Shown: positions 11,364-61,676 of the stretch, one piece after another
How positions within the stretch are numbered: position 1 is the first letter of the stretch
Layout: the number at the start of each line of letters is the position of its first letter
Assembly: GCA_037043015.1 (NCBI GenBank)
Contig: CM073322.1
Location: 21,356,364 to 21,420,363 of the forward strand
From: Bryum argenteum
Taxonomy: Eukaryota; Streptophyta; Bryopsida; Bryales; Bryaceae
Length of the DNA: 64,000 nt
Direction of reading: 5' to 3'
The notes under the pieces: model-generated
The model's database searches: none
What the model saw: the letters and a program-made list of their open reading frames with translations, nothing else
Told to the model about the DNA's origin: nothing
Made by a program: the position numbers and the translations under genes

Positions 11364-11573
11364 TTAACCCCTAAGTGCCCAAGAAAGTTGAAATAGGTTC
11401 TTTGTTGTTTCATGCAGCTTACATGAAGGATCTAACTTTGGTATTCTAGGCTATAATTTGGTGTGGATGGGTTCATGCATACATACTACATGTTTAAAAA
11501 TTTGCAAACCCATATTTCAAATTTAGTATATTATTACATAAATTTTAGTTTTCAAGCCGAAACTTTTTTTTAC

Positions 11574-11607
<34 letters not shown>

Positions 11608-12243
11608 CAAAATTTTTTAATCAGGTTCATTAAAAATACTACTACTAAAATTCTCAAAAATTCAATTTGGGACTTTTACCAATTTTATAAGGACACCCTT
11701 CAAGAATCATATCAAATTTCAAGAGAATTTGTAATATTTCAAATTTTTCTTCCAAAAAGCTTCAAAATCTTCAAAATCTCATTGTTCACTTTTTCTCTTA
11801 ATTAAATGCATTTTACGTTATTCACGTTTTTTTCGTATTGTTTTTTAGAAAGTAATTTGCATGAAGGCCATAAATTCACAATGAGTCTAAAATTTTGTGT
11901 GGGTGTTTTCAACTTAAGAATCTACAAGGAAAGAAGTATAGGCAAAATGTTTGGAGTAATAATCATCAAGCTCTCTTCTGCATAAAGTAAACTATGTCTT
12001 TCAACAAATGCCCTATAGAAATTTGACATTAACTTTGAGTTTTATGATCTTGCAAATGGTGCAAATCCAAACAATGAAAATGGCAGCTAGTCGTGAGTGT
12101 AGGTAGGATGAAGATATTACGGTTCACATTTCCAAAAAAGAGTAAAAGTTTCAACCTTACCTTAATTTCTACAAGGTGGTCAAAAATTGTACAATTTGGT
12201 ATTTGAGATCCAAAAATGCTTGGGCATATACTGTAAAGGTTAA
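11364..12243. mobile_element. TTAA-flanked non-autonomous element (piggyBac-like), 880 bp
   Basis: The left end reads TTAA-CCCCTAAGTGCCCAAG. The right end, reverse-complemented, reads TTAA-CCTTTACAGTATATGCCC. The terminal repeats are diverged. The right TTAA (12240-12243) is shared with the next element. It contains a T-run at 11579-11607 and no coding sequence. Confidence 0.55.
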
Positions 12244-13151
12244 CCTCTAAAGGTATGAGGTCTCCAATTTACTTCTTATGTTTCTAGGAGCCTAGATGAA
12301 GGGGATAGAATCGATGCAATGTTGCTTAATTTTTACGGGATGTTTTCTATACTACAAGGTGTATGTGGGAAAATTTACAAAGTCAAACTTCACTTTTGGA
12401 GTTCTTGAATTGATTTTGATTTTCAGCTATGGGACGGGTTGAAAAAAACTATTTTTTCTAAGATAAATTGGGTTTTTTTTGTGTTTTTTTTTTTTTTTTG
12501 AAAATCTTTTCTTGACTGATTTTGTACTCACGTTTTCACGTGAGCCAAGCTAATCCGTCAAAATTACAAGAGCTTGATTTAAAGTTTTTCGTAATATTAC
12601 CAAAAATAATAATTAAAAATCAATATTTCCTAAAATTTGAGATTTAAGAATTTTTAGAATTTATTTTTCCTCTAAATTCACAATCTCATGAAGGTTCCTA
12701 CTTATTGTTCATTTTTCTCCTAAACCAAATACGATAAACGTAGTGCATGTGTTTACGGGATCCTTGATTCCAGTAAATAAATTGCATGAAGGTTCAAAAA
12801 ATCATATGAGTTCAAAAATCTTTGCATGGGCAAGCTCAACTTAGTTATCTACATGAAAAAAATGAGCAACATGTTTAAGGTAATATGCATCACGTTTTCC
12901 TTTGCACAAAGTAGACTACGTTCGCTCAAAAAAGATTTGCATAAAATTTGAATGTTACGATCTTAAAAATGACAAAGATCCAAGTTGAAATTTTAACCAC
13001 TACCTTCAATGGTAGTTTTCTTCAAGATCCTATGGACGAAAGTTTCAAAAAGTGTAAGAAATATTCTCATACTTCAAGGTTTAGAAGGTGGTCTAAAATT
13101 GCGGATCTGGAGTTTAGAGCTCTTAAACACCATGGTTGTTTTAGGGGTTAA
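12240..13151. mobile_element. TTAA-flanked piggyBac-like element, 912 bp
   Basis: The left end is TTAA-CCTCTAAAGG and the right end is TTTTAGGGG-TTAA. The right 250 bp match, in reverse, the left end of the 935-bp element at 60742 (shared CCCCTAAA and ACCATGGTG-like ends, then TCTTGAAGAAAACTA-like sequence). No transposase is encoded. It abuts the preceding element over one TTAA. Confidence 0.65.
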
Positions 13152-13582
13152 ACGTGGATATTACTATACATGCGTATAAAACTATTGAGTAAGTAAACAT
13201 TGATTTTTGAGATTACTTTTCAATCAACTAGTATGAATTACACTTGAATGTTATGAATGTAAGTATAGTAAGTCATTATCTTTTTTATGCACTAATTTCA
13301 GGTACAGATTGTAAACTATACCATATCTCATTCATAAATTAACCCCTAGTTGTGCCAAATGTCAAAAAGACAACATTTTGGATGACAAGATCAAAGTCTA
13401 AAAAGCCTTAGCTTCTTCATCCAAAGTCTGTTTTTGACATATAATTACTTGAGTTGTGTTCCAAATCAAGTCTAGTTTGTGTGGTGGAATTTGAATGCTC
13501 ATCCAATTTAGCTTCATATGCCTGTGCAAGAGCATGCCAAATGAAACAAATATCCTCGATCATTTAGATCATTCAGCGTTGT
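13152..13582. repeat. Intergenic DNA with a partial TTAA-element end at 13339
   Basis: TTAA-CCCCTAGTTGTGCC at 13339 resembles an element end. The next 130 bp share motifs such as CTTCTTCATCCAAAGTCTG with long TTAA elements at 16.2, 31.2, 33.0 and 38.1 kb. No matching right end was found, so the copy is probably truncated. Confidence 0.4.
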
Positions 13583-13680
13583 CACTAGTAGAAAAGTGGT
13601 ATGAGTAAAGTTACAAGTAGAGCCAAAGAGACACTATGCCTCTACTCATGGCTTTCGTGAGACCACCTTTTCTAGTATTG
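13583..13680. mobile_element. CACTA-like MITE, 98 bp
   Basis: The left end CACTAGTAGAAAAGTGGTAT is mirrored by the reverse complement of the right end, CAATACTAGAAAAGGTGG. The same ends occur in a 140-bp element at 44763. Starting with CACTA fits the CACTA superfamily; I could not define a clean 3-bp target duplication. Confidence 0.6.
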
Positions 13681-14040
13681 CATCAAGCAGACCTATAATC
13701 CATTTAAAGAACCTAAACTTTGTCTACGTACTGTACATAAGGATAATAATTGGACTTCGAACCCCTTGTATATATTTGAATATGCATGTATATTACCTTT
13801 ATTTATTTTTTATTTATTTTCTTGAACTTTCTCAGACACCATTTTCAAGTGCTAAAGCAAACATGTCATTGATATTGGTGATAATAATAGTATGTAATAG
13901 GCACTTAAGGTGTATAGTATGGGTACATGTCATCAAACACCACTCAGTTTGATATCTCGACACTCAACAAACTCGCAACAGACCATGGCAAAGTGGCAAT
14001 GAAGGTATAAACATGCACTTGAACATTGCATCCTACCGGA
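13681..14040. other. AT-rich intergenic DNA, no gene seen
   Basis: No repeat boundary or coding frame recognised. Confidence 0.35.
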
Positions 14041-14120
14041 TTTACCCTTAAATGTCAGAGCATGCCCCTCGGGCTTGGTTTCCAGTGTATTTTCAGAGGG
14101 GCTTGACGTTTAAGGGTTAA
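14041..14120. mobile_element. Minimal TTAA-type element, 80 bp
   Basis: The ends are TTTA-CCCTTAAATGTC and GACGTTTAAGGG-TTAA. Only about 48 bp separate the inverted termini. The internal GCCCCTCGGGCTTGG also appears, in related form, near the ends of the 242-bp copy at 42039. Confidence 0.65.
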
Positions 14121-14889
14121 AACGTTGAAGTGTCACGAGCCGGAAAGTATGGCCTTGGATGAACAGGCTCGATCTTCATGAATTCCGTACATTCCAAGTA
14201 TACATGAACGTTAAAAATCGATCACTGTGTAACATATGTAAGCATTTGGGTGGGAGCATGTGAACTGTCCAGTCTTTGAAAAAAATTAAAAGTTGAGAGG
14301 AAGATCTGAGTGACGGTTGTTTGTTTCCATCAGTCCATGTAACTACGGTTGGACTACCTAAAAGGGCCAGGGACCCAAAAGCGCTCTGTACCTCATTTGT
14401 AGATTGTGAAAATACAGATGTACTTCATTTGTATATAACGCAATTGGGTCAAATCTTACTTAGCACTTTGGAATTTTGTATAAAATTCACATATGCAAAT
14501 TACATGTTGCAAATTTTTACAATCCTCCTGAAAACCTATTTCGAATGTGGTCATAATTTTATTTTGAGTTTACTAGTGCTAAAAATAGGTCAGATCTCTT
14601 AAGTTGGTGCTTTTAGGACACTCAACCTTGTGCATGCAACATTTGATTGAGAGGGAGTGCAGAAGCTCACAGGTTCATGAGCGTTATAAATTTCTTGCCT
14701 TGGAGTTGAGTCAGCTCACCTTGCTTGTAAAATGGCACTTGGACTAGGCGATTCCATGTTGTTTGCTGAGTCAGAGTGTTTAGTAGGCATGAATCGGCAA
14801 TTGTGTACTCTTTTATTCAATAACCCAGATATGGGCTTTCACTGTTTAGATCTTGACAACAAGGTGTGATGGGAGACGCGCATGTGATT
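14121..14889. other. Intergenic DNA, no gene seen
   Basis: Moderate GC between 14121 and 14420, then AT-rich. A 93-codon frame at 14321-14602 has no recognisable product and is not supported. Confidence 0.35.
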
Positions 14890-16098
14890 CCACGTAAAAT
14901 GCAAAAAAGAGCCCAAAACGGGACGTTTGAGGTCTGGTGAGCCTCGCGTGAAATTGGGAACTTTTGCAGGATGTAGATTGTTCCCACATCTTTCCAAAAA
15001 GTCATTTCATGCTTCAAAATTTTCCCCTACTTAACCCTTAGACGCCTGAGGTGCCCCCAGGGGTCATATTCGAACAGAATCTCCTCTGTAGCTCTCAATG
15101 ATTGTACTCAACTTTTCACTTAAATTTTGATGTCAAACTGGTCACCTTCTTGTGATGCATTCAAAAAGTGAAATTTTAGAATTCAAATCACAATTTGTAT
15201 AAGTGATTTTGTGCTTTGAAAGGATTGTGGTAGGTAGGTTGGGGTTGTGCATAACCTTGTAGGAGGTTGCAAGCTCATCATTGATTGGATCATTCATGAT
15301 GCCTAGGTTCAAAAAAGTGCACTATTCATGATGCCCAAGTCCAAAAGATGTTGTGATCCAATACTGGACTGCCCAAATTCGTATAGCCTGACGTTTAAGG
15401 GTTAAGGACATATTCATGGTCAAAGTTTGAAAACACTATTTATAATCTTCCCAAAACTGCCCAAACTGCAATATACATGCTAATTTATCCTCAAAATCTC
15501 CCCACAATAAGTCAAACCGCAGAAACTTTAAAAATTCGCCAGAAATTGAGATTTTACTTTTTTCAAGTTTTGTTTTTTGCACATGTACAATATATGTGGT
15601 TTTAAGCATGATCTCACCGTTTGGATCTTCAATCCATTTAATTTTCACATGCCATTTGTATCGTCAAAGACCGATCTTTGTATTTAAATTTGAGCATACG
15701 GTCTCCATGTGAAAATTCAAGCATTTCTTTAGGTTTCACTGGTCGCATGAAGGTAAAAATTGCGTAGACATGTTTCTAACTTACTTAGAAACAAAAATGT
15801 GAAAAGCCTCAATTCAAATTTACTCTTAAAATTGGATTTTTGGGTTCACAAAGAACTTCAAACCCATTTTGCAACAAGGAAAGAAAACTATTTTCTCAAC
15901 TTTGAATGTTATGATCTCACAATTGGTGAGAAAGATCAAGTCAAGATTAAGTACACACGTACTTGGACAAGTTACGTACAAGATCTTACGATTACATACT
16001 CGAGATATTGTCAAAATTTGAATATTTCCATCTTGCATTGAGAGATAGTGGTTTTGAGGTCTTTTGGCAGTTTGGGGGCCTTTCGACTGTAGGGGTTA
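14890..16098. mobile_element. Long TTAA-type element, degenerate, interrupted by a 375-bp copy
   Basis: The interior matches the elements at 37603-39703, 46617-47115 and 51383-52206 in order: GTCATTTCATGCTTCAA, GGTCAAAGTTTGAAAAC, TACCTCCATGTGAA-type sequence, CAACTTTGAATGTTATGATC. It ends in TGTAGGGG-TTAC at 16098. The left end is not clear. It is non-coding. Confidence 0.55.
15031..15405. mobile_element. TTAA-flanked MITE, 375 bp, nested
   Basis: The ends are TTAA-CCCTTAGACGCC and GACGTTTAAGGG-TTAA. The interior is nearly identical to the copies at 17913, 38576 and 56169, including CTTTTCACTTAAATTTTGAT or its variant, GGTAGGTAGGTTGGGGTTG and ATGATGCCCAAGTCCAAAAG. It sits inside a longer TTAA element whose relatives lack it. 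Confidence 0.85.
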
Positions 16099-16793
16099 CC
16101 TCACATTGACCTAGCACTTGTGCAACTTGTGAGCCAAAGACTTAGATCAATTTATCCCATCAATTTTGGATCTTTTGTTTTTGCTCCACCCAGACTGAAA
16201 GTCTAAAATGACATTTCGGATGACAAGCAACAACTTTGAAGAGCCGTAACTTCTTCATCTTCAGTCTGTTTTAGACGAAATAGCTTAGGTTGAGTCCCAA
16301 ATTGTGTCCACAAATTTATCAAATTTCACGTGTGAATCTTGAAATATATTGACAAAGTCAAAGTTTGAGTGTTTTGTAAAAGAACATTCTTATTCTAGAA
16401 AATCGATCCGATTCGGGCTTCTCTCTTCTTCAGGGTTGAATTCAACGCGATTGACGCAACATGGCTAATAGAGTGGGCATGGAGCAGGAAGTATGGAATC
16501 AACAGGGCCAATTCAAAGCAACCGGGTCGGTCGGGTCAAACAAGCGGGACGAAGTCAAGGAAGCAAAACAACCGAAAACAGACAGAAACACGGGAACTAC
16601 AGAAACAGTATGCTCAAGTGCACACGAGGAGCAAGTTGCAATGATTCAGCAAGTCCCAGAATCATATTAACTTCAAGCTAGGCTCGTACGAACAATTCCT
16701 CAGGCCCCGGGCCACATGAATAATGATGTGCATGACCGGCCACCACGAAAATGGGCCGGCGATGATATTTCCCGGCAAATCGAGTAACTTCCG
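16099..16793. other. Repeat remnant then short GC-rich stretch
   Basis: 16190-16320 resembles the ACTTCTTCATC...GTTTTAGACGAAAT segment of other long TTAA elements. From about 16400 GC rises. A 69-codon frame starting ATGGCTAATAGAGTGGGC at 16461 has a good start context but no recognisable product. The region is bounded on the right by a LINE insertion. Confidence 0.35.
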
Positions 16794-17912: not shown

Positions 17913-18282
17913 TTAACCCTTAAACGTCTAAGGTGACCAGAGGGGTCCTTTTCCAGCATAATCTTCTCTGTAGCTCTCAATGTACCCACCTTTTCACTTA
18001 TATTTTGATGTCAAACTCGTCACCTTCTTGTGATGTATTCAAAAAGTGAAATTTTAGGAATCAAATCACAATTTGTATGAGTGATTTTGTGCTTTGAAAG
18101 GGTTGTGGTAGGTAGGTTGGGGTTGTACATAACCTTGTAGGAGGTTGCAAGCTCATCATTGATTGAATCATTCATGATGCCCAAGTTCAAAAAGTGCACT
18201 ATTCATGATGCCCAAGTCCAAAAGATGTTGTGATCCAATAATGGGCTGCCCAAATTCGTATAGCCTGATGTTTAAGGGTTAA
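17913..18282. mobile_element. TTAA-flanked MITE, 370 bp
   Basis: The left end is TTAA-CCCTTAAACGTC and the right end is GATGTTTAAGGG-TTAA, a 12-bp near-perfect terminal inverted repeat. The interior matches the 375-bp copy at 15031 along its whole length. Flanking sequences beyond TTAA share no longer direct repeat. Confidence 0.88.
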
Positions 18283-25872: not shown

Positions 25873-26523
25873 CTAGCTGGACGAGGGCACCCTCGCTCGC
25901 TTGGCGGCGGAGGTGGCTCTCTGCTTCACTAGCGCAGCAAAGCTCTCCCAGGGGAGCTCGGCCGGGATGGGGTGCAGCTGCAGCTGCTGCGGCGAGTCCT
26001 CAAAATTGTACGGGATCTTCTTCTTGGTGTAAAAGATGCCCACATCGTAGGCCCGCGCGGCCTCCTCGGGGGTCTCATACGTGCCCAGCCATATCTTGCG
26101 CTTCTGCGACGTGGGCCGGATCTCCGTCACCCACTTGTTCAATTCCGGCCGGTGGCGCACGCCGCGAAACGCCGTGGTGTCGCCGCCGACGCCCACCACG
26201 CTGCTCACAGCGTCGTCGGCGTCCCATGCAGACGGCACCTTATTCAAATCAAAATTCCGCAGCTTAAACGCAGCATTATTACTACTACTACTATTATGGC
26301 GACCCCCCGCGTCCTTGGTCGTTGTTAACCGCATTCCCGACTTCCTCTCTTCTTCACTCGACTCCGACGACTTACTGTCGCTGTCTTCCTTCTTTACCCG
26401 TGAGGCTTCTATTTTGCTCTGTAGATGCAACCCCTGCTCCCGAACCTTGCCACCCCCACTTGGATCCCACCTGTTCTTCGCTTTCTTCCCGTGTTCTATA
26501 ATGCTGGATATTGTCAAATTCAT
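25873..26523 (-). CDS. AP2/ERF transcription factor with an EAR-type DLNxxP motif
   Basis: The protein has 216 residues in one coding exon; an in-frame TAG two codons before the ATG fixes the start. The AP2 domain spans about residues 118-175: [39 protein letters not shown], then IPYNFED. WLG and AARAYD are the invariant core, and a single AP2 domain places it in the ERF/DREB family. Val in WVTEI is the DREB-type residue, but the Glu expected in the next turn is replaced (IRPTS). Residues 46-60 are Ser/Glu-rich and acidic. Residues 92-97 read DLNKVP, matching the EAR repression motif DLNxxP, so transcriptional repression is inferred. A basic KRAR near the C terminus may aid nuclear import. 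Plant AP2/ERF factors bind GCC-box or DRE-type promoter sites. Confidence 0.9.
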
Positions 26524-27270
26524 GAACTACGGCCACAATATCACCGTCCCAAAGGGAAATATATAAATATTCCGTCACGGTCTCAATTGCACACACAACC
26601 TACACAACACAACAAACCCACCATCAATACAACACAATCCCAGACCTAAACAGAAACTCCAAATTCCACATACCCTACAACAAACCCAAATCGAAGAAAA
26701 GAAACATACCGTAACGTAAAACGGTCCTCCTCGAGTGACGATGTCAACACACCATTTATTATCTGCACAAGAGAGGCGACAGATCACCGACACGAAACAC
26801 TCGCCACAACCCAGAAACGTAACGGAATGAGAGATCGTACGGCAAAGAAGAAATGGCACGAGAAAGAAAGGGACGATGCGATTCGTACCTGAGAGGAGCG
26901 GCAAGAGAGAGAGAGAGGCGGTGCTCGCGTGCGTGCGTCGGTGAGAGTGAGTGAAGCGAGCGAGAGGAGCGAGGAGGAAGAAAGGAGGGAGGGAGCGGAG
27001 GTTCTTGCGAGTATGGGAGTGAGACGCGGAGAGAAGGGAGGTATGTATGGTATGTTAAGAAGCAGAGGAGGAAGCGAGTGCGAGAAGATGCAGCCGAAGC
27101 ATCTGCGATGGAGAGGAGGCGAGTGAGAAACGGCGAAAGAGCGCGGGGCTTGCTGGCTGGCTGGCTGGTGCTGTTTGTATGTGGAGGTGCCGCAGCCTGC
27201 CGCGGGGGCCACCACCATGCCCGAAGGGTGGTGGGTCGTAGGGTAGGTGGCTCGGTGGTAGTGTAGACTG
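26524..27270 (-). promoter_or_regulatory. Spliced 5' UTR and promoter of the AP2/ERF gene
   Basis: On the minus strand I see a C/T-rich leader ending at 26889 with donor CTCAG/GTACGA, acceptor CTTGTGCAG before 26762, a short exon 26762-26710 with donor ACG/GTATGT, and an acceptor GTTGTGTAG near 26596 leading to the ATG at 26523. The arrangement (two leader introns of about 115-125 bp) is inferred from splice signals. The strong GAGAG purine tracts on the plus strand at 26900-27130 correspond to the CT-rich leader or core promoter. Confidence 0.45.
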
Positions 27271-29889: not shown

Positions 29890-30403
29890 TTAGCCTTCTC
29901 TTGGAATCAATTCAAATTATTTTCTGGTTTTAGTGGTAAAAGCCTTAATTGGATGAAAGATGTATTGAAGATAAGGTATAGATATGAGTGCAAGGGGTCG
30001 AGTTTTGGACTATTTTTTTCTGTAAAGTGTTTGGCAGTTTTCGCCATTGCAAGACTACCTTGTGAGCCAAGATTTTTTTAAAATTTTTAAAATTATACTT
30101 TGGTACAATACAGTCTTTTGAGATGGAGAAAAAAAACTTCCTAGTTGGTGCTTTTTTGGTTGCAAATTTCATGTTGGTAGTATCTTCACTTTGAAGTGAA
30201 AATGATGGTTTCTTGTAGCTTTTGTTGTGCACTAAAACATTATGATTCCGCAATCAATTAGGCCCCATGAGTCAAGTTTTGGTCCACATGATCTACAACA
30301 AGTGTACTACAAGATTGTATGGTTGAGATATGAGAATCTTATTTTAATATATATATCTATGAGTTTTTGGCTAAAAATACCCCCAAGGACATTTAGGGAT
30401 TAA
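29890..30403. mobile_element. Truncated inverted copy of a long TTAA-type element
   Basis: It ends at the right with GGACATTTAGGGA-TTAA and is an inverted copy of the left half of the 937-bp element that follows. Shared segments include CACTTTGAAGTGAAAAT and CATGAAATTTGCAA in opposite orientation. The left terminus is missing. Confidence 0.65.
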
Positions 30404-31336
30404 CCCCTAAACGTCCTTGGGGTATTTTTAGCCAAAAACTCATTTTCAAAAAAAGTGATATAGATGAAAATGAAGATAAGCTATTCAGATCTCAACCGTA
30501 CAAACTTGTAATAAACTTAGATTGCGAGATCATAACATACTAGTGCGCAAAACAGGCTACATAATACAATCATTTCCACTTTGAAGTGAAAATACTACCA
30601 ACATGAAATTTGCAATCAAAAAATCAACAACTAGAAAGTTGTTCATCTTCATCTCAAAGACACTTTTGTACCAAAAAAATCATCAAAAAAAAATCTTGGA
30701 TCAAATAGTAGCCTTGTAGTCGTGAAAACTGCCAAAAATTTTACAAAGGAAAAATATTCCAAAACTAGACCCCTCGCACTCAAATCCATGCCTTTTCTTC
30801 AATATATCCTGGATGGGGTTAAGGTTTCTACCACTAATAATAGACTATAATTGGAATCCATCCCAAAAAATAAAGTCAAAATCTAACGGTGGATGAAGGA
30901 GATCTAGCTCTTCAAAAATCATCCATTTTTTCACTTTTTTCATCGTAGAAACATCATTGCAAAGCCAATACCAAAGTTATCTAGATCAAAAAACTTCCAA
31001 CTACAAAGTTGTTGAGATGCATCTAAATATCAAACCTACAAAAAAAAAGTTCATGAAAAACTATTTTAGATTTCACAGAATTGGCTTGCAATGGTAAAAC
31101 ATGCCAAATGTTTGAAAACCCAAAAACAAAAGCTGCCTTCACTAAAATCCATGCCATTTACACATACTTTATTTTATGAGTCTGCAATTTTTACCACATA
31201 AACTAGACTTGATTTGTGACCTAACCCAAGTGATTTCGTCAAAAACAGAGTTTGGATGAAGAAGTTATGGCTCTTCAAAGTTTCTGCCCTTCATCCAAAA
31301 TGTCGTTTTTCGACACTAGGGGCGTTTAGGGGTTAA
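30400..31336. mobile_element. TTAA-flanked piggyBac-like element, 937 bp
   Basis: The ends are TTAA-CCCCTAAACGTCC and GGGGCGTTTAGGGG-TTAA, giving an 11-bp perfect terminal repeat with further similarity. The interior is non-coding. It abuts an inverted relative across a single TTAA at 30400-30403. Confidence 0.8.
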
Positions 31337-37602: not shown

Positions 37603-39703
37603 TTAGCCCCTAAGGGTCCATAAACCCAAAATGGGTTTTCCTTTGATCTCGAGCAACTATCATGAAGGGGTTAATTTTTTATTTTTTTTCCTAAGATTTT
37701 TATTAGAATGGTCCTTATTGTTCAGAGTGTATGTGGTGAAATTTGCACAATCAATTTCACTTTTAAAACCTTCATCCAAAAATCTAGTCCAAAATGATAG
37801 TTTAAGTTTTCTCATTTTTGTCTTTTTTTTGGAATATTGTCATGTTACTCAAGTTTCAAAGTGATCCAAATTTAAAAAATTACCAATCTTACAAGGGCAG
37901 CCTCCAAAATTTATAAAACCAAATTTAAAAGCTTCTGGTAATTTCTGAGTTGTTTCTTTTGAGATTTGCCAAAATTCGTGTTTTTGGAATTTTTTAGAAG
38001 AAATTCTGCTTTACCCTCAACCGGGCCGAAATGTGGAATATTGACATTTTGGATAATTGCAACAATTTTGAAGAGCCATATCTTCTTCATCCAAATCTTT
38101 TTTGGATGCAATCACTTGGGTTGCATTACAAATCAAGTTTATCTTGTGTGGTAAAAATTGCAGACCTATAAAATGAAATATGAATAAACGACATTCATTT
38201 TAGTGAAGAGAGCTCTTGTTTTTGAGATTTTCAAACCTGGGGCTTGTTTTACCATTGGGAGGCAATTATTGGAAATCAAAAAGATGTTTGCATGTATTGT
38301 GTTACATAATCATGAATTTAAGATGCAAGCTAAATACTTTTGGACTCTAGTCAGCCTCCCCGTTACTAAATTTTGACAACGTGAAGATGGAACTTTATGG
38401 GGATTGTAGAGCTTTCATACTTTTTGAAAAATTCATTTTGTGCTTCAAGATTCCTCGTACTTTACGAAATATTCTTAGTCGTAGTTTGAGAAAACTATTT
38501 GGAATCTGCCAAGAATTGCCCAAACTACGGTAAATGCTCATTTCCAATCAAAATCTACCCAACATCAATTGATTCTTAAACGCCCAAGCAAGCCCGAGGG
38601 GCTTGATTCCAACAGAATCTTCTCTGTAGCTCTCACTGTAGTCGACTTTTCACTTATATTTTGATGTCAAACTGGTCACCGTCTTGTGATGCATTCAAAA
38701 AGTGAAATTTTATAATTCAAATCACAATTTGTATGAGTGATTTTATGGTTTGAAACGATTGTAGTAGGTAGGTTGGGGTTGTACATAACCTTGTAGGAGG
38801 TTGCAAGCTCATCATTGATTGGTTCATTCATGGTGCCCAAGTTCAAAAAGTGCACTATTCATGATGCCCAAGTCCAAAAGATGTTGTGATCCAATTTTGG
38901 GCTGCCCGTTTTAGACCCCAAGGGCGTTTAAGGGTTAAAATGTATAAACTTCAAAAATTCACCAAAAATTCAGATTTTGTTTTCTTTTTTTCAGTCTTTG
39001 TTTTTTAACATGTGGAAGAGGTACCAATGCATTATCTCGCCATTTGGATTCCTAACCCAATAATTCTTCACATGCATTTTCTATTGTCAAAAACTGGCCT
39101 TTGACAGTAATTAAAATTTAGCATACCTCCATGTGAAAAATCAAGCTTTTTTCCTAAGTTTTATAAGTCCTCTCACGGTAAGAAATTACGTAGACATGTA
39201 CCTTACTCACTTAAGAACAAGAAGTTGAAGAGCCTCATTTCAAATTGGTTTTTTTGGCTCACAAAACACCTTGATCCCTATCGCAACAAGGGGAGAAAAA
39301 CTTATTTTTCAACTTTGAACGTTACAATGGTTAGAAATTTGAATGTAAGATTTTGTGTACATGTAAATGTACAAGTTAGCTACTAGATCCCACAGTTACA
39401 AACTTCAAAACTTGTCAAAACTAAAAAGTTGCATCTTGCATCAAAAGAGGGCAATTTGGCACGTTTGAGGTTAACCCACTCCCCTTTACAAATTAAGGGC
39501 TAGACCAACTCAAACAATATGTACAAATCTAATCAGATAGAGAGATTAGAAATCAAATCTCATTCATGAAAATTTTTAAAAAAAAACAATAAAAGTTTCC
39601 ACCTTCACTTTTACAACTTGTCCATTGAAGTATGTGTCTAAAAAAATTACGTATGGCCCCAAGTGTATGTATATCAAGTACCCTTGGGCCTTTATGGGGT
39701 TAA
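37603..39703. mobile_element. Long TTAA-type element, 2.1 kb including a nested copy
   Basis: The ends are TTAG-CCCCTAAGGGTCC and GGGCCTTTATGGGG-TTAA. The interior matches 14890-16098 and 51383-52206. Without the nested 363-bp insertion the length is about 1.74 kb. No transposase coding sequence is visible. Confidence 0.6.
38576..38938. mobile_element. TTAA-flanked MITE, 363 bp, nested, shortened left end
   Basis: The right end is GGGCGTTTAAGGG-TTAA. The left begins TTAA-ACGCCCAAG, so the outer seven bases of the normal terminus (TTAACCC) are missing. The copy at 56169 has the same short left end. The interior is the common 370-bp family. Confidence 0.8.
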
Positions 39704-42038: not shown

Positions 42039-42280
42039 TTAACCCTTAAACGTCATATGCTTTCCTGATACCACACCCAAAATCTCTTTTAAACTCCATT
42101 TTTAGCATTGTTCTATTTTTAATTTGCTTGAGCTCTATTCTAAGAAAGTATAGATCTCTTTAAGGTGCTCAGTTTAGAATTCTAAGAATTCCATTTGGTA
42201 TAATGGAGTGTAAGTTCTGAGCAAGATTCTCTCAAAAAAAAACCCAACCCCTCGGGCTGGGTCTGACGTTTAAGGGTTAA
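42039..42280. mobile_element. TTAA-flanked MITE, 242 bp
   Basis: The ends are TTAA-CCCTTAAACGTCA and TGACGTTTAAGGG-TTAA, a perfect 13-bp terminal repeat. The interior differs from the 370-bp family, so it is a separate subfamily with the same ends. Confidence 0.85.
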
Positions 42281-44480: not shown

Positions 44481-44748
44481 TTAACCCCTAAAGGTCCAAG
44501 AAAGCAGAAATCGCTTTTTGGAATTTCCTCAGGGAGAAAATTCAGCCAACTTTGACCATTATAATCTCAAAATTGGAGAAAAATTAACGGTTCAAAGTTG
44601 ACATTTGTGAAAAGGGTCAAGTTAACTTCAAGATCCTACGGTTGGATCTTCTAATCAATGCTTAGATTGAGTTTCTTTGCACCTGAAGTAGAAGAAGGTT
44701 CTTTTTGATAATTTAAACAATTTTGTATCAAAGACCTTTAGGGGTTAA
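44481..44748. mobile_element. TTAA-flanked MITE, 268 bp
   Basis: The ends are TTAA-CCCCTAAAGGTCC and AGACCTTTAGGGG-TTAA, a 12-bp terminal repeat. The interior contains CAACTTTGACCATTATAATC and GATCCTACGGTTGGATCTTC, shared with copies at 49511, 50340 and 55904 to varying degrees. Confidence 0.88.
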
Positions 44749-44902: not shown

Positions 44903-45368
44903 GAGGTGGACACTCACAACAGTTGAAGGGGTGATATTATAGAGATTGGTCAAACTATGGACATGTTTGGGGGTTCTAGTGCAAGAATTCGAGTGCATTA
45001 TGTGAGGTAATTAGAAACTTTCCCAAGGATTTGAAAGTTAGATACTCCCTTTCATGGTAAATCCCTATAAATTTATCATATTCCTTGACTCATTAGGATA
45101 CATGCTTCAAATCATTCATTGAAAAGCATCAAGTACTTCTTCTCTATTATATGGTAACATGCTAAGAAACCAAGGAAAATTCAACATAACAAGAGAGGGC
45201 TAGGGAATATTTACACAAGAATGTGCAAAATTTGCAAAGAATCATACATTTTGGACTTTTTACATGTTTTTGTTTATGGATTTTAGAGAATGTTTCTATG
45301 ATCAATTTAGGTGATTAATATACATTTGGTAATGAAATTGAAGGATACAAGCTTCCTCATGAGCAAAT
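44903..45368. other. Intergenic DNA, no gene seen
   Basis: No recognisable feature. Confidence 0.35.
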
Positions 45369-45870
45369 AGAAACTCCGGTCCCATTCTAAGGCGAATATC
45401 CCATTCCTCATGAAGTGTCCGTTCGTAATGCTAATATCCCGATGCAAGGGGAAATTGGAACAATACTACTTTCCCCCTTTCGAGGGTGGACACTATAATT
45501 ACGCTAGTTTCCATCTAGTTACTAGTGCCTTGAAAATACTTGACATAGTATTCCCCCAAAGGATTTTGAGGTACCCATACAACAAGGTTTAACCCCTAAA
45601 GGTCTGAGCGTGCCGTGGTGACCAATAGAATACGGTGTATTTTGGTTGTATTTAGAGTGAATGCACACCTTTAATGGGTTTGAGTTCAAAGAAGAAGTTG
45701 ACATTTGAATTAATGCGGTTCTAGTGAGCTATTACGATTCCAGTTTAGAGTTTATTGTTGGTAGCAAATCCTAATTATACAACAGCGTACATACTGTCCC
45801 CAAGGGACTTTTAAGGGTTAAGGACCCCACACAATAGTTGGGTGGAATATAGTGGTGAGCAGCCTACTTA
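45369..45870 (-). mobile_element. tRNA-derived SINE interrupted by a TTAA element
   Basis: 45369-45588 and 45822-45870 align continuously with the SINE at 58144 (AAACTCCGGTCCC, GAGGGTGGACACTATAA, GAGGTACCCATACAACAAGG, then GGACCCCACACAATAGTTGG). The tRNA-like 5' part beyond 45870 is lost. Confidence 0.8.
45589..45821. mobile_element. TTAA-flanked MITE, 233 bp, inside a SINE
   Basis: The ends are TTAA-CCCCTAAAGGTC and GGGACTTTTAAGGG-TTAA. The SINE continues on both sides (AACAAGGT / GGACCCC). In the uninterrupted SINE at 58144 the same point reads GGT-CCAA-GGACC, so a single four-base site became two TTAA copies. Confidence 0.85.
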
Positions 45871-49510: not shown

Positions 49511-49777
49511 TTAACCCCTAACTTTCCTTGTTGCAAAACGGTGTAAGTCACAAAATTTGACCTTCCTTTAGATTAAGCTCAAAAAATCTCAATCCAAGCA
49601 CTATTTAAAAGATTCAACCGTAAGATCTCAAAGTTCACTTGACATTCTTCTCACATACCAAATTTAAACCGTTCATTCTTCCTCATTTGTGAGATTATAA
49701 TGGTCAAAGTTGGCTGAGTTTTTCTCTTGCGGGAACCTCCAAACCCGTTTTGGGTTTTAAGGAGAGTTAGGGGTTAA
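49511..49777. mobile_element. TTAA-flanked MITE, 267 bp
   Basis: The ends are TTAA-CCCCTAACTTTCCTTG and AAGGAGAGTTAGGGG-TTAA. Roughly 90 percent identical to the copy at 50340. Confidence 0.88.
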
Positions 49778-52967: not shown

Positions 52968-53207
52968 TGGCGGGACTACTAAAACCCTCTCGAGATGAAC
53001 ACTATGCTAGTTTCTACCTAGCCACTAGTGCCTTAGAGATACTCGACATGCTATCCCTGCGAAGGGCTTTGAGGTACCCATACAACGAGGTACGAGAACT
53101 CCCCACCATAGTTAGTGGTGAGCACCACGCGGGCACGGGAAATAGAACCCACGGCCTCCTCAATGGGGGCCATGAGCCCTAACCACCAAGCCAAGGCTTG
53201 TGGTGCC
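52968..53207 (-). mobile_element. tRNA-derived SINE, 3'-truncated copy
   Basis: From AAAGGCACCACAAGCCTTGG (minus, 5' end) to the GCTAGTTTCTACCTAGCCAC region it matches the SINE at 58144. Box A-like TGGCTTGGTGGTTAGGGC is well preserved. Confidence 0.75.
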
Positions 53208-53689
53208 TTTACACAAACAACATGAATACCACATTGCACAAATGTATACATTGAGCATATATCATTTTATTTATTTATTTTTTTCCCTAAACCAATCAAC
53301 TTATTAACCAATTGAGAAGGATACAACCATGAACCTACATAGCGTACCTCCTTCTTCTTGCACTTTGGTACTTTGACAGGCATTATATCATTTGGGTTTG
53401 GCAATTTGCTAAGGCGTGCACAGGACATCCCTCAAGCTAGGACTTACCCCAACGCATGCCCGCTCATACTCCCTACCTAGCCAAAAAACGGCAATTTAAT
53501 TCTTTTCATTTTTTGAGGCCTTCAACTACTTTTTACGAAATTTTGAGTTCCGAAGTGGGATCTGAGACCCATTTTACCCGGGGACCCTACCATGGTATTA
53601 TGGGTGACATCAACAATTAAAAAAATAGGGGGCAAATTTACTCCCAAATTTTTATATGGCCGGGCAGGGTTTGGGGGGCAGAGACGCCG
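53208..53689. other. Intergenic DNA with a LINE-tail-like sequence
   Basis: A T-rich tract at about 53265-53285 followed by AACCAATCAACTTATTAACC resembles a minus-strand LINE 3' end. No target duplication found. Confidence 0.35.
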
Positions 53690-53743: not shown

Positions 53744-53983
53744 GCGTTTACACTGCCGGCCAGTAGTTTCGGCAGGCAGCCACCAGCTCAATTCCGTTCC
53801 CACATCCTGCTGAACCTGCTGACCAATGAGATACAATCCATGCGGAAAAATGGTGTAAAAATAGTCTTCCTGCTGTGCCTGCTGGTTGAAGGTGGCTGTT
53901 CCAGCCTGCTGGGCGCGAAATCGGCTTCTTAACTTAAACCAAATTTGGGGCTGCCCAGCAGGCGCAGCAGGGAGTGTAAACGT
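53744..53983. repeat. Foldback about 240 bp with CGTTTACACT ends
   Basis: GCGTTTACACTGCC at the left is mirrored by GGGAGTGTAAACG at the right. Several CAGCAGG-type units recur inside in inverted orientation. It may be a MITE or a decayed inverted duplication. Confidence 0.45.
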
Positions 53984-54420
53984 AGCAAATGTTTGATGGA
54001 AACAATTGAATGTTAGAACAGAAAAAGGTTTTGTGTGAAGAAAGCAAAGCAATGGTTGACCTTTGCAACAACTTCTTCCTACAACTGCTACCTCCATCCA
54101 TCAATTGCCAATAACTGGGGCAGGGCAGGCCAAAAATAAAAAAATAAATCACTGCCAATGAGAATCCATTTAGATTCGGATTTGTAGGCTTGGCTTGGCT
54201 TTGTGTGATTGAAGAGGTCCACGTGTTTCTCAGCTTTGGATGCTTTTGGTTTGGAGCCGAGCTGAAATTTAGATTCTTCACGTGGGTCGATCCTCTTCGG
54301 GATTGGCTCTCCTGGCGGTGCCATTTTCCGAACCTACCCCCCAACTCGGTCCGGACCTACCCCCCCATCTCTTTATTCCATTTAGTGTTCCATTCAAACT
54401 GTTTACTGTAGCAGACTGTT
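53984..54420 (-). other. GC-moderate region with plausible first-exon-like frames
   Basis: On the minus strand a frame starting at 54324 reads MAPPGEPIPKRIDPREESKF and stays polar before a hydrophobic, stop-limited end at 54088. A 136-codon frame from 54344 overlaps it. The first has a good ATGGCACC context, but no domain is recognisable and no downstream exon was found. Confidence 0.25.
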
Positions 54421-55903: not shown

Positions 55904-56172
55904 TTAACCCCTAAAGGCCCATGATGTTTTGGGAGCTTGAAATCCCAACACTGACCACTATGTACTAATGCGGGTACGTCCAATATTTTTGGAAATTTTT
56001 GATAACTTCAACCGTAGGATCTTGAAGTAGACTACCATAGGTAGTAGTGTGAAAATTTTCAACCGTTGGATCATCACTGGATGTGAGATCATAACATTTG
56101 AAGTTGACTGTAAATTTTTTTTGGCCTTGACCGTAAAAGCCGAATCGGCGGCCGTGGGCCTTTAGGGGTTAA
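55904..56172. mobile_element. TTAA-flanked MITE, 269 bp
   Basis: The ends are TTAA-CCCCTAAAGGCCCA and TGGGCCTTTAGGGG-TTAA, a perfect 14-bp terminal repeat. A further TTAACCC precedes it at 55897. The right TTAA is shared with the next element. Confidence 0.9.
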
Positions 56173-56499
56173 ACGCCCAAGTAAGCCCGAGGAGCTTCAT
56201 TCCAACCGAATCTTCTCTGTAGCTTTCACTCTACTCAACTTTTCACTTATATTTTGATGTCAAGCTTGTCACCTACTTATGATGCATTCAAAAAGTGAGA
56301 TTTTAGAATTCAAATCACAATTTGTATGAGTGATGTTGTGCTTTGAGAGGATTGCAGTAGGTAGGTTAGGGTTGTATATAATCTTGTAAGAGGTTGCAAG
56401 CTCATCATTGATTGGTTCATTCACGATGCCTAAGTCCGAAAGATGGTGTGATCCAATTTTGGGTTGCCCGTTTCAGACCCCATGGGTGTTCAAAGTTAA
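56169..56499. mobile_element. TTAA-flanked MITE, 331 bp, abutting the previous element
   Basis: The left end is TTAA-ACGCCCAAGTAAGCCCGAGG; the right end has decayed to GTGTTCAAAG-TTAA. It belongs to the 370-bp family and lacks the outer TTAACCC at the left, like the copy at 38576. Confidence 0.78.
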
Positions 56500-56768
56500 T
56501 GAAAATTAATAGTACTTAGCATTATTACAAAATTACATACAGAATGGAGACAGTGGTGAGTCACGGTAATGGGACGCGGAAAGATCTGGAGGAAATCAAT
56601 GCAAACGGTAACATCACAGTCGAGGAGACCTGTACTGGACAAGGAGCATGGCTGCGTTCTCACGATTGTCTATAATTGCCCTGCCCTGCCCTGCCCTGGA
56701 GGATTGAATTCTGTGCAATCATCCGCACAAATCGATCGCTCTGTCTACCAATTCATGCATGCAGCGCG

Positions 56769-57573
56769 ATGTTGAACCATCCATTCATCGATCAGATCAA
56801 TTCGCCGACCGATTGCAGGTGCTGCATTCCCGTAAGTAAAATTAATGCCAGTCAAACATGACCAGTAGTACCAGCTACCAAATCCGGAGTCGTACGATCG
56901 ATCAAATCCAACCCACCGTAGTAGCTAGCTTAACTTGCTTGTCGTTTGCCGCTTACCCTCATTATCTCGCCTTCTAGCGCTACTTGCCATCCACTGAATC
57001 TGTTTCCAAATCCCCAAAGCTGCTGCAACCTCATGCGTTTTCGAGCTTTGTAATTATCATAGACGTATACCCCTATAAGCTCATATGTCGGTGAGCATAA
57101 ATACCGCCCACACGTTTCATTTCCTTCTTTTCTGTAAAGTGCGAAAAGCTTAATACTTGAGTGTGATTTTTCAACATTGCTAATGATTATTGGGCACTGG
57201 GCTGGCATTGTGACTTTGTGGGAGGTATGTATGTATGTATGTATGTATGGCTTTTCCCAATGCAGGAAGGTGACTTCTTCGTCCTCAGGGACGGACTTCT
57301 CCGCCATCGATGAGGTGAGTATTTTATTTTTCTCACGACGACAACGACAATGGAAGATTCTAGAAGCGGAATGGAGCGATGACTAGTCTGGTACTACTCT
57401 TGTTAGCGTTTTTTTTATTGTTTTTCTTCTAGGAAAATGGAAGATCACGTCCAGATCTTGTGCGTGTGCGAAGCAATTTGGAGATGCGGAATCTCGACGC
57501 ATGCGGCTCATGTGGAAACAATAGCCATGTCGGTGGCTTCGCCGATCATGCGACCATAGACCGTCAAGTTTGA
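56769..57573 (+). CDS. Tentative four-exon gene of unknown function
   Basis: Proposed exons: 56769-56831, 56978-57090, 57140-57314, 57433-57573; 163 residues. The signals are GTAAGT, GTGAGC and GTGAGT donors and pyrimidine-rich acceptors, the last being an excellent TTTTTATTGTTTTTCTTCTAG. All three junctions keep one frame. The protein has a hydrophobic stretch FSSFVIIIDVYPYKLIC, a second LLMIIGHWAGIVTLW, a GTAT-microsatellite-encoded VCMYVCMY, then a polar tail ending DHATIDRQV. Membrane location is inferred. Weak points: intron 2 is only 49 bp, shorter than usual in plants; no domain is recognised; and a 125-codon minus frame with a good start context (57307-56930, MAEKSVPEDEE) competes for the same DNA. 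Upstream CCTGC repeats at 56677-56698 may be leader. Confidence 0.3.
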
Positions 57574-58133
57574 CTTGGTAATTCATTTTCAATGACCAGC
57601 TACTACCGACAAAGCCTAGCTACTATACAGTACAGTACAATACTGGCCGTGAAAATCACACAACCAACCGTCTCTAGCTTACTTTTCTTTATAAAATTGT
57701 AGAAAACGCTAAGTGGGTCCCAACCCTTCCGACGAAACTGCACTGACACCACGCCGAAGTCTCCCAAGTTCGTTCTGATATTTCGGGAGGTGGAGTGTAA
57801 CTGAGTGATTCATGGCCTTCATTGGAGGCCGACGAAGTTTTGGTTCCTGTCCATGATTATTCGGATAATAGAATACGACTATAAATAGCAACCAGAGAAG
57901 AATCTTGAGAGATCGGGTACAGCCTACACCTACGTTGATGCTTTCGGTAGAATAGCTTCATCTTCGCTTCTCTAGAGGCATGCAGAGACCATGTACAGAC
58001 TTCTCGAACATTGTCAAAGTGCTTCTGCAGTGATATAATATTGAACAATACTGAATTGTTTAGAGACGGGATTGGTTTGGATTGGAAGGCATGAGAGGCA
58101 CGAAGGTGGACAATTCGATCCAGCAGTGAGGGA
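57574..58133. other. Intergenic DNA, no gene supported
   Basis: Moderate GC. A 126-codon minus frame (58237-57857) runs into the SINE and is not credible. Confidence 0.3.
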
Positions 58134-58143
58134 TTCGCAATAA

Positions 58144-58516
58144 AGATAGATAGATAGAAACTCCGGTCCCTTTCTAAGGGGCCGGCGTGAATGAAGTGTC
58201 CGTTCGTAATGCTAATATCCCGATGGCCACCGGACAAGGGGAAATTGGAACAATACTACTTCCCCCTCTCGAGGGTGGACACTATAACTACGCTAGTTTC
58301 TAGCCTAGTTACTAGTGCCTTGAGGATACTTGACATAGTATCCCCCCAAAGGACTTTGAGGTACCCATACAACAAGGTCCAAGGACCCCCCACAATAGTT
58401 GGGTGGACTATAGTGGTGAGCACCACGCCGGCATGGGGAATGGAACCCACAACCTCCTCAATGGGGGCCATGAGCCCCAACCACCAAGCCAAGGCTTGTG
58501 GTGCCTTTATTTTTTT
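58144..58516 (-). mobile_element. Full-length tRNA-derived SINE, 373 bp, with 10-bp target duplication
   Basis: TTCGCAATAA flanks it at 58134-58143 and 58517-58526. On the minus strand the 5' end reads GGCACCACAAGCC, then box A-like TGGCTTGGTGG and, about 45 bp on, box B-like GGTTCCATTCC, as in a pol III tRNA promoter. The 3' end is a GTTTCTATCTATCTATC run. An extra A-rich stretch precedes the 5' end. SINEs are copied by LINE enzymes; LINE fragments are present in this window. Confidence 0.85.
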
Positions 58517-58526
58517 TTCGCAATAA

Positions 58527-58841
58527 CAGTAAACTGGGTAGGCGAGATCTCCATGCAATTCGCACGCCCTCTCCAAATTTGATGGCAGGAGTTATTGAAG
58601 TCTTCGCTTCACAAGCTGGCTCGTACCCTGGCCACCACTGGAGGAAGAAGAAACTGACCCGCGCCAGACCAGACGAGCTCCAGTTCAGTAAAAGTACCTG
58701 CTGAAATTAGTATTGGAGAGTAAATTGCATCGTACCATGTACCGCCAATCAACAACTCTTGTGTAGTAAAAAAGTTGTCTTAATAGACTCACACTTTGGC
58801 ATTGTAGAGCTCTAAACTGTAAGTTGATTATACCATCTTTT
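58527..58841. other. Intergenic DNA, no gene seen
   Basis: A short GC-rich stretch to about 58700, then AT-rich. No feature recognised. Confidence 0.35.
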
Positions 58842-59646
58842 CACTACACTAAAAATTATATTTACTGTTTGCGAACGACAACACTAATTGTCAACAAGGG
58901 TAAACTTATGGCAACTCTAAATGCCAACTACAGCACATGTCAACGATAGTAGCGAATATTAGTAATAAGTAGTTGACATTTAGTGTTTGATCTCAAGCTA
59001 AAAGTAACCTTGAGCTTGGAATCCTCAATTGGATGCTCCAAATCACTCAGTTTTTTGATCTTGGTGACAAATTGAATACGACATGTATCTTCATAGATAA
59101 CACTTTCAACATTAGACCCCATCTCCTTGGAAAGTACTTCCTCCACATCTTCACTCTTCCACTCGTGTATGTACAAAGCAAAGGATACACTCATTGCATA
59201 TCGCCTTTCTACTTGCTTCAAATGAAGCAAAAAGAGAATCTTACCGTAAACCCTAAAAAGAAAGAATAGCTCTAAGCTTTACATTTCAACCAATTTATTG
59301 AGAAGCTAACAAGCGACCACCACGAAACTCAGAACCATGAAGCTAAACGGAGAACCACTGGAGCATGTCGTTGCTATCGCTAGACTCGTCTCAGGTCTCA
59401 CGCCGACTCGAAGCCATCAAACCCCTATCAGCCAGTAAACCCCTCAATCTTGTGCTATCAAGATCTGCTCAGCGAGATCCCCTCTATTGTTCGGCATTTC
59501 AAAACTAGGGAAGAAGTGAAGCTTAAGAAATTCTAGAAAATGGGTCCATACACTAATTGTCCATTACATGATTAATAGTGTTGTGACATGATTGATATGA
59601 CTACACTATTTGTCATCCAACACTAAATATAATTTATAGTGTAGTA
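58842..59646. mobile_element. 805-bp terminal-inverted-repeat element carrying a coding-like fragment
   Basis: CACTACACTAAAAATTATAT at the left is mirrored by the reverse complement of the right end, TACTACACTATAAATTATAT. Subterminal ACACTAATTGTC recurs near both ends. The middle is GC-richer and contains a 96-codon minus frame. The CACTAC start resembles the 318-bp element at 40155. Confidence 0.65.
58940..59230 (-). CDS. 96-codon frame inside a TIR element, possible captured gene fragment
   Basis: The frame begins MLHLKQVERRYAMS and includes YIHEWKSEDVEEVLSKEMGS, then VIYEDTCRIQFVTKIKKL and IEDSKLKVTFSLRSN before a stop. The composition (mixed charged and hydrophobic, no low complexity) is more protein-like than other frames in AT-rich parts of the window. 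No domain is recognised. A TTCTTTCTTTTTAG acceptor-like site lies just upstream, so it may be the last exon of a captured host gene. Expression is unknown. Confidence 0.35.
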   Translation of the reverse strand: MLHLKQVERRYAMSVSFALYIHEWKSEDVEEVLSKEMGSNVESVIYEDTCRIQFVTKIKKLSDLEHPIEDSKLKVTFSLRSNTKCQLLITNIRYYR

Positions 59647-60741
59647 ATAGGTTTGGGTTTTAAAGATGTGGAACAAAGAAGTTCTATCCACAAAGAGCAT
59701 TTGTACTAAAGACCCTTCAAACAACCACTTCTATAAGATGATAAGGGGTTTTATCTTGAAAAAACCTCAATTTTGTTAAATGACATTGTTCCATGTGCTC
59801 TTTTGGTGGACCGAATGTGCCATTTCGGCTCGTGTTCTAGAACTTGCCATTTTAAAGGCATATCCACTTTTGCATCTAAAATGGAACACGTTTTTAATAT
59901 CAAATACGTCCTTCATAGTAGCAAATGATTTCTGTAATATCACCAAAAAGTTCTTGATATGAGACATTTTTACGATCTTTGACCTTTAAAAATGGGTTGA
60001 AGGGCTAATATATATGAATGGTTGTTGTTTTTGAAAACGGCCGTTAAGAAATATTATTTTGATAAAAGGGCATATATTTGTGAGCTGCCATCGAGAAACA
60101 TTTGGTAGAAGGCCCATATTTCTCCTGTTCGGAAACATTGTTGTTCTTAAATGGTTGTAGAGAAATATTTGCATTTTGACGGTGTGATAGGTCAAAAAGA
60201 CCTATGTGATTTGCGATATGTTGAAAACCTCAAAATGTGCAATGTTGGCAATATAGCGCTATTGAAATTAAAGTAAAATAGTAGAAAACTCGTGAACCTA
60301 TCCAATATGATTAGGGGACGCTTTACATGGGGAGTCAAGGACAACAATTCTCCAAGCCAATTTACTCATATTTTGAGCCCAATCGGCTCTTTGGGCCACT
60401 TAGAGAACACATTAAACAATTAATAAAGTAAGGGCCAATTCCCCCATGTGCAAAACCACACATGCTACGAACACACAAGTTAGCCTCAATTGTAGTCAAG
60501 GTGTCCAACCCACCTTATATTAAGCTTCTCCTCAGGTGAAGATCTAATCTCAATTGTCTCATTTGTCTCTTTTTGTTTTGTCTAGTTCTCTAGGTGGCCA
60601 TAATAGTGACAAGCATGTAATTTGTTGAGGTAGGAGATGCCTACACAATAGGGATACCAAGTAACATCGCATTGGCTCCTGGAAAGAAAAGGATAGGTTT
60701 GAGCTTATGATGTTAAGTGATATTGTTAAGTAAAATATCAC
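59647..60741. other. AT-rich intergenic DNA, no gene seen
   Basis: Short frames on both strands without features. Confidence 0.35.
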
Positions 60742-61676
60742 TTAACCCCTAAACTACCATAGTGTTTTGTGAGCTCCAAACTCCAAAATTACAATTCTAT
60801 ACCACCTTGTAAACTTTGGAGTGTGAGAATATTTTTTACACTTTTTTGAAACTTTCAACCGTATGATCTTGAAGAAAACTATTATTAGAGGTAGTGACTG
60901 AAATTTCAACCGTTGGATCGTAGCCATTTGTAAGATCATAACATTCAAAGTTGATGCAGTTTTTTTTCCAACAAACATTGTCGACTTTGTGCAAAGGAAA
61001 ACGTGATGCTTATTAGCTTAAACATCTAGCTCATATTTTTTTCCATGTATATAACTAAGTTGGGCATGCCCGTGCAAAACTTTAGACACTCATTTTGCTT
61101 TTTGAACCTTCATGCAATTTATTTACTATAAGAAGGTAGAAATCAAGGATTTGGTAAAACATGTACCACGTTTATTGTATATGGTTTATGGGAAAAATGA
61201 ACGGTGAGTATATACCTTCTTGAGTTTGTGAATTTCAAGAAGAAATAAATTCAAAAAATTCCAAAATCTCAAATTTTGGCAAATTTTGAAAGAAAAAATG
61301 GAAATATCAAAGAAAACTTTGAATCTAGCTCTTGTAATTTTTGAAGGGTGCCCTTGTAGGATTGGTAAAAGTTTCAACTTGGGTCACTTGAAAACCTTAG
61401 TACAAAATCAATCAAGAAAAGATTTTAAAAAAAAAATTTCAAAAAAAAGGTAAAAATAAAAAGTTTTTTTCTGCCCGCCCCAAGGCTGAAAACCAAAATT
61501 TGCGTTTGAGAACTCCATAGGTGGAGTTTGACTTTGCAAATTTTCCCACATACACCTTGTAGTATAGGGAACATCCAGTAAAAATTTCAGGCAAAAATAT
61601 TACTTTTAACATCTTAACTTAGGCTGCCCGAAATCGCAAATCTCCTAATCGGAGGCCTTGGTAGTTTAGGGGTTAA
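60742..61676. mobile_element. TTAA-flanked piggyBac-like element, 935 bp
   Basis: The ends are TTAA-CCCCTAAACTACCA and TTGGTAGTTTAGGGG-TTAA, a perfect 14-bp terminal repeat. The interior is the inverted relative of 12240-13151. Neither copy encodes a protein of notable length. Confidence 0.85.

Follow-up and report, generated by a model that had tools for sequence, protein, structure and literature searches.

Short TTAA-flanked elements in a bryid moss are very probably non-autonomous members of native piggyBac families

What are the short inverted-repeat segments that crowd this part of a moss genome, and where is the transposase that serves them? The window (the whole stretch of DNA analysed, 64 kb) had been predicted from its letters to hold at least 14 TTAA-flanked segments of piggyBac type in a plant genome. 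The host is indeed a plant, its matK falling among bryid mosses and the window encoding B3 and AP2 domains. Twelve of the 14 listed elements start with TTAACCY and fit TTAACC[CT][CT]TAA[AG] when one mismatch is allowed; ten starts match this motif exactly and eight match the strict form TTAACCC[CT]TAAA. The segments stand as listed, with deviations at three (named here by their first position): 14041 has TTTA, not TTAA, at its left end, 38576 begins with TTAAACGCC, without the outer CCC, and 50340, its right end decayed, is the one element of the 14 for which no right end was located.

Exact 12-mer ends occur 10 times (left) and 12 times (right) in the whole 64 kb, against an expected mean of 0.1 per strand and a maximum of 1 in 60 Markov-1 simulations. 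Permitting two mismatches yields 22 and 27 ends versus 12.2 expected, an excess so small that looser, 'decayed' ends are by themselves no evidence. Genome-wide there are 7868 and 1146 exact ends, and 0 in reversed controls. The window elements are 80–937 bp long and sum to ~6.4 kb, 10% of the window (taking 50340 as 267 bp). Perfect terminal runs, including the TTAA, span 13–18 bp in seven of the 13 measured elements and 2–10 bp in the remaining six. The elements are as follows, L numbers denoting loci elsewhere in the assembly.

11364..12243: internally deleted piggyBac element, 880 bp; right terminus decayed, one TTAA common to the next element; both end regions resemble autonomous L028 (200 bp at 73%, 387 bp at 71%) and L059
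12240..13151: internally deleted piggyBac element, 912 bp; right 404 bp 70% identical to an L059 end; 76% to 60742 over 871 bp
14041..14120: miniature element, 80 bp; left TTTA; first 34 bp 82% identical to an L019 end
15031..15405: 17913-family element, 375 bp; 91% identical to 17913
17913..18282: miniature element, 370 bp, type copy of a young family; TTAA flanks each of 30 copies retrieved
30400..31336: 937-bp element with L062-type ends; first 25 bp 96% identical to an L063 end, 23 bp 96% to an L062 end
38576..38938: 17913-family element, 363 bp; left terminus short by TTAACCC; 90% identical to 17913; an L019 end matches its right 43 bp at 84%
42039..42280: 242-bp element with 17-bp perfect ends; no match to the compared autonomous copies at E 1e-3
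44481..44748: 268-bp element with L059/L028-type ends; 46 bp 80% identical to L059, 29 bp 93% to an L024 end
45589..45821: 233-bp element inside another repeat; no match to the compared autonomous copies at E 1e-3
49511..49777: 267-bp element; 92% identical to 50340; internal 103–119 bp at 73–76% to L059 and L028
50340..50606: relative of 49511, right terminus decayed
55904..56172: internally deleted piggyBac element, 269 bp, nested in a 17913-type element; 230 bp 88.5% identical to positions 1–244 of autonomous L024; 38 bp at the opposite end 84% identical to L059
55897..56493: 17913-type element, split by 55904 at a TTAA within its own terminus; 56169–56493 82% identical to 38576
60742..61676: internally deleted piggyBac element, 935 bp; its outer stretches match the two L059 ends (left, 415 bp at 74%; right, 157 bp at 68%)

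The target duplication is TTAA and no longer, as had been claimed. We aligned the window copy of the 17913 family with its 29 best relatives (40 candidates were scored of 2162 genome-wide, the other best 39 at 93–95%); all 30 copies have TTAA at either end, and the information content of columns beyond it does not exceed 0.43 bit, leaving no sign of a longer duplication. Queries of joined flanks, designed around empty sites, gave a junction-spanning match in 12 of 44 cases. Four junctions fit a TTAA-only insertion: L058 (against window 53793–53991), L043, 55904 and 45589. The joined flanks of 45589 match window 58235–58422 at 93%, gapless at the junction, where the TTAA reads CCAA; those of 15031 match L030 at 78% over 226 columns, a fit but for a 2-bp gap next to the single TTAA. 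For 38576 and L042 the junction contains gaps of several bases and is not clean, and for L038 the relative has TTGA. Matches at L032, L041, L049 and L056 were rejected as empty sites, the match being to element ends.

No transposase was found in the window by tblastn with 47 transposase rows at E 1e-3, a search in which the positive control L061 was matched by 47 of 47; the original prediction had placed the source element elsewhere, and transposases are indeed encoded there. Of 776 DDE_Tnp_1_7 candidates in the assembly, 116 matches were scored; they are present on every contig C1–C11. Of 15 loci examined at greater length, 10 have the transposase bounded by the same TTAACCCYTAAA-type termini, in elements of 4.95–6.4 kb; both ends were not found within the fetched stretch in five (L020, L021, L023, L026 and L063). 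Perfect terminal runs including the TTAA reach 17–20 bp in L019, L025, L059–L061 and L024, and 7–12 bp in L022, L027, L028 and L062. For L027 the limits given (1509–6920) are the outermost ends that match, and nested DNA may lie between them. Mid-element GGTTAA-type sites of L001, L002 and L005 were rejected as ends: the flank beyond them is identical in all three, making the sites internal, and wider loci gave the true ends. Three 5.7-kb copies on different chromosomes (C2, C4 and C9) are 99.8% identical, which points to recent movement. Several window elements are internally deleted forms of these autonomous elements, with up to 415 bp in common; 42039 and 45589 match none of the compared copies, so their link rests on the termini.

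The transposase is of piggyBac type. All six ORFs scanned contain PF13843 (DDE_Tnp_1_7; E 1e-78 to 1e-82), and no other Pfam family was found at E 0.001 in these six bounded or related ORFs. The best PDB match is Trichoplusia ni piggyBac (6x67, E 2e-29). Positions equivalent to the catalytic residues D268, D346 and D447 of T. ni, and to its D450, are aspartate in 13 of 13 aligned moss rows; L003, L007 and L021 were unrecognised by the search pattern and left out of this alignment. By eye, L021 lacks the fourth acidic residue, reading VDTAAQ, and the moss C-termini are cysteine-rich, with no separate Pfam domain called there. The longest frames, called from genomic DNA, run to 0.9–1.3 thousand residues, and a stop lies inside 23 of the 116 matches.

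A conserved 88-residue domain, ORF1, lies upstream and on the same strand in at least 98 of the 116 transposase matches. Among the matches listed, none is on the opposite strand, one in each of two counts is downstream, and 18 of the 116 transposase matches have no ORF1. Five helices are predicted; comparison with Pfam, PDB folds and the sequence database gave no clear match. Judged by substitution patterns, the domain is under purifying selection (pN 0.20–0.31 versus pS 0.68–0.86). ORF1 is usually read in a frame other than that of the transposase. In five of the seven lineages that we compared, the two frames overlap where the transposase frame begins; in another, the ORF1 frame stops just short of it. 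ORF1 would be part of the transposition machinery, its putative role most likely that of an N-terminal DNA-binding or assembly module of the transposase.

Some other two-gene DNA transposons have a separate accessory protein, and it is quite possible, if rather short of probable, that ORF1 is likewise made from its own frame and is no N-terminal transposase domain. Consistent with this, six of the seven lineages have, near where the ORF1 domain ends, an ATG that begins the +1 transposase frame (reached through an apparent intron in L022, L024 and L028), and in L022 ORF1 stops before that ATG. Against separate proteins stand L065 and L066, in which ORF1 and transposase are fused in one open frame (1059 and 1331 residues, respectively), and three further transposase matches whose long frame has the same length as that of an ORF1 match. 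We favour the N-terminal module.

Could the transposon DNA be foreign, either a contaminant or recently acquired by horizontal transfer from an animal or protist? A beetle study (PMC12732532) considers it likely that piggyBac passes horizontally between species, and five outside proteins (P0001–P0005) fall among the moss rows. In the tree, however, a branch supported at 100/100 separates these five and the 14 moss rows from the animal-named rows. Transposase matches occur on all of C1–C11, and elements sit inside one another on contigs that also carry plant genes. Chromosomal spread and nesting led us to reject an animal contaminant, and foreign origin as a whole appears improbable beside a plant lineage; an origin outside plants, preceding the radiation, is possible.

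Kolobok also duplicates TTAA, according to the original prediction normally without CCY ends, but a Kolobok-type or other TTAA-targeting superfamily that is piggyBac-like at its ends only is scarcely credible, and Kolobok identity was rejected on the transposase: same-ended elements, sharing up to 415 bp with those of the window, encode PF13843 as the sole Pfam family in six of six ORFs; for window elements with long matches this largely disposes of the rival. The piggyBac identity originally proposed is borne out by same-ended elements that encode DDE_Tnp_1_7 and by the TTAA-only duplication; neither a longer duplication nor a transposase of another superfamily appeared. We conclude from these sequences that the window elements belong, almost certainly, to native piggyBac families of a bryid moss, as non-autonomous (MITE-type) members.

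By analogy with established piggyBac biology, the transposase would act in trans on the ends of the short elements, nicking next to TTAA, excising through hairpins and inserting at TTAA; hairpin excision would restore the TTAA site without a footprint. Many termini read CCCTTAAA and thereby contain a TTAA of their own; insertion of one element into the end of another helps to account for nests such as 55904 and L043. In a fuller reading, about which we are evenly divided, mosses host a plant-specific piggyBac clade that is of sufficient age to have split into several lineages and is still moving, with an obligate upstream domain of new fold expressed across a frame change: a native, footprint-free plant transposon.

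A class known as an animal genetic tool thus seems to be represented in a land plant by a lineage of its own. A piggyBac that is native to plants and moved recently would provide a seamless tool suited to plant cells and a natural setting in which to test plant control of these transposons, and the part that the uncharacterised ORF1 domain plays in transposition could be examined by deletion. Our search of papers found no moss piggyBac; one moss paper (PMC10619864) matched, in its available part, on 'piggybacking' alone. That the lineage is undescribed is not contradicted by this literature. A plant review (PMC10794571) names PiggyBac among plant superfamilies, giving no detail in the part available.

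The moss elements share with T. ni piggyBac and its superfamily the TTAA duplication, short inverted ends starting with CCC, a DDE_Tnp_1_7 domain with the DDD residues and, as judged by eye, apparently a cysteine-rich C-terminal stretch. They are larger than the beetle piggyBac elements described in PMC12732532 (4.95–6.4 kb versus 2.1–3.5 kb), as are their longest transposase frames (0.9–1.3 thousand versus 500–725 residues). The same source gives a single transposase ORF as a trait of beetle elements, a trait that is no superfamily criterion and from which the moss elements depart through their upstream ORF1 (at least 98 of 116 matches). They differ further in their moss host and conserved upstream domain, and with ORF1 they are, on present sequences, a variant piggyBac. 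The window elements resemble plant MITEs in being short, numerous, internally deleted and nested. Plant MITEs are usually assigned to superfamilies other than piggyBac; those of this moss, by contrast, very probably derive from piggyBac itself.

A genome-wide search for the transposase domain PF13843 (DDE_Tnp_1_7) returned 116 scored matches among 776 candidates (best E 7e-82), with no stop within the domain in 93 of the 116 (hand count from the table); transposase frames reach 469–1,187 aa in ten wider loci. Ten of the 15 loci read (L019, L022, L024, L025, L027, L028 and L059–L062) possess both ends with a PF13843 frame between them, spanning 4.95–6.4 kb and bearing perfect terminal runs of 7–20 bases, TTAA counted. 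This locates the transposase source that the original prediction had placed elsewhere in the genome. The closest solved structure to the transposase is T. ni piggyBac (6x67, E 2e-29), and catalytic-site aspartates are present in 13/13 aligned moss rows, a count that excludes three further loci missed by the search pattern. The elements are piggyBac. In a midpoint-rooted tree of 47 transposase rows, one branch (support 100/100) separates 14 moss rows and five database proteins, P0001–P0005, from T. ni piggyBac and the animal-named rows. Since P0001–P0005 fall among the moss rows, fitting the latter by themselves to the tree takes six changes; given the midpoint root, a "clade" of moss rows plus P0001–P0005 is only a reading.

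All 14 segments predicted to carry TTAA and CCY ends were inspected in sequence. TTAACCY stands at 12 of the 14 starts (ten fitting TTAACC[CT][CT]TAA[AG] exactly), the exceptions being 14041, with TTTA at its left start, and 38576, which lacks the outer bases of its left end; a right-hand partner was found for 13. Exact ends in the window number 10 left and 12 right, versus 0.1 per strand expected by simulation, and the elements are 80–937 bp long. Neighbours 11364 and 12240 have a single TTAA in common. Around a single TTAA, the arms 29901–30403 and 30400–30867 point towards one another with the same type of piggyBac end, and the left arm may derive from an inverted copy of 30400 that has since decayed. 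The CCCTAAA ends of the window families are similar to the plant telomere repeat unit, a likeness with no functional implication. Pfam also detects two plant-type features:

5343–7214 and 25873–26526: B3 domain and AP2 domain, in open frames

The window lies on contig C2 (21,356,364–21,420,363) of a 258.8-Mb, 25-contig assembly. The 514-aa matK encoded on contig C12 shares 97% identity with a metagenome cluster, 82% with Bartramia pomiformis and 81% with Orthodontium lineare, which makes the host a bryid moss.

Target duplications were examined in the family of 17913, a 370-bp element, using the best 40 of 2,162 genome candidates scored; its 39 other best relatives share 93–95% identity. TTAA flanks both sides of 30/30 retrieved copies, the window copy included (mean pairwise identity 96%), and aligned columns beyond it carry ≤0.43 bit, bearing out the view that no duplication longer than TTAA exists. 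Searching for empty sites with joined flanks gave a junction-spanning match for 12 of 44 queries, four of them informative. Joined flanks of L058 match window 53793–53991 at 87% with one TTAA; L043 and 55904 each inserted in the TTAA within the terminus TTAACCCTTAAACG of another element; and the insertion point of 45589 reads CCAA in a relative, at an ungapped junction. The remaining matches (38576 and L042 among them) were uninformative, with junction gaps or matches to element ends. The target of 45589 is a separate dispersed repeat family (58144–58506, 53006–53208, 62723–62865 and 45367–45588), which also occurs within locus L063.

Element 55904 matches the first 244 bases of source element L024 at 88.5% identity, and 38 bp at its opposite end match L059 at 84%; matches extending for hundreds of bases tie 60742, 11364 and 12240 to the end regions of L059 and L028. 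These four are internally deleted derivatives of source elements, and 42039 and 45589 are linked to source elements by termini only. Exact TTAACCCYTAAACGYC occurs at 7,868 sites genome-wide and exact TTAACCCCTAAAGGYCCA at 1,146; both reversed patterns occur at 0.

L059, L060 and L061, on three chromosomes, are 99.8% identical over 5.7 kb, identity ending ≤2 bases from the TTAAs. At least 58 matches to ORF1, a frame upstream of the transposase, have identical score and frame length (hand count; 58 again in a second listing); among the matches listed, none of these lies on C1, at 44.1 Mb the largest contig seen (17% of the assembly). C1 does hold at least one L059-type copy (transposase match C1:24627430, ends C1:24625566 and 24631281). 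Only 19 of 1,146 TTAACCCCTAAAGGYCCA sites fall there, about tenfold poor, versus 10/46 for a neutral pattern; C1 can thus be read, yet holds few of these elements. A sex chromosome, or heterochromatin inaccessible to insertion, is a possible identity for it. At G000:C2:1907221-1918618, end-pattern and ORF1 match positions place two full-length L059-type elements apparently end to end, in opposite orientation, with one common TTAA.

ORF1 carries a common domain of ~88 aa in seven lineages, linked by single-sequence searches within one genome (E 1e-5 to 1e-12). A Pfam scan found no match in six of the seven and weak, sub-cut-off matches in L024. In 51/116 transposase matches ORF1 shares the strand and lies ≤6 kb upstream (shifted control mean 0.24), and, among the matches listed, ≤8 kb upstream in 47 of the remaining 65; one match in each count has it downstream, and none listed has it on the opposite strand. 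Across four close lineages the domain gives pN 0.20–0.31 and pS 0.68–0.86, and the catalytic core 0.14–0.21 and 0.63–0.82; two distant pairs give pN 0.51–0.56 with pS saturated. The domain is thus kept under constraint, a little more loosely than the core. Its predicted model (mean pLDDT 86) has five helices, with no good match in a PDB fold search. By eye, a +1-frame ATG lies close to the domain end in six of seven lineages, L027 having none there; in L022, L024 and L028 an apparent ~90-bp GT-AG intron (judged on genomic DNA) connects this ATG with the transposase, and in L025, L026 and L062 the ATG leads straight into it. Domain and transposase occupy one frame in L065 (1,059 aa) and L066 (1,331 aa).

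A plant review names PiggyBac among plant superfamilies, without detail (PMC10794571); for mosses, the open-access literature searched yielded no description of piggyBac. Annotation tables label 0 copies as piggyBac in Cyperus, 1 in Stipa, 60 in Stellaria and 1,230 in Ceratopteris. The moss elements are new within piggyBac by host and by their added domain.
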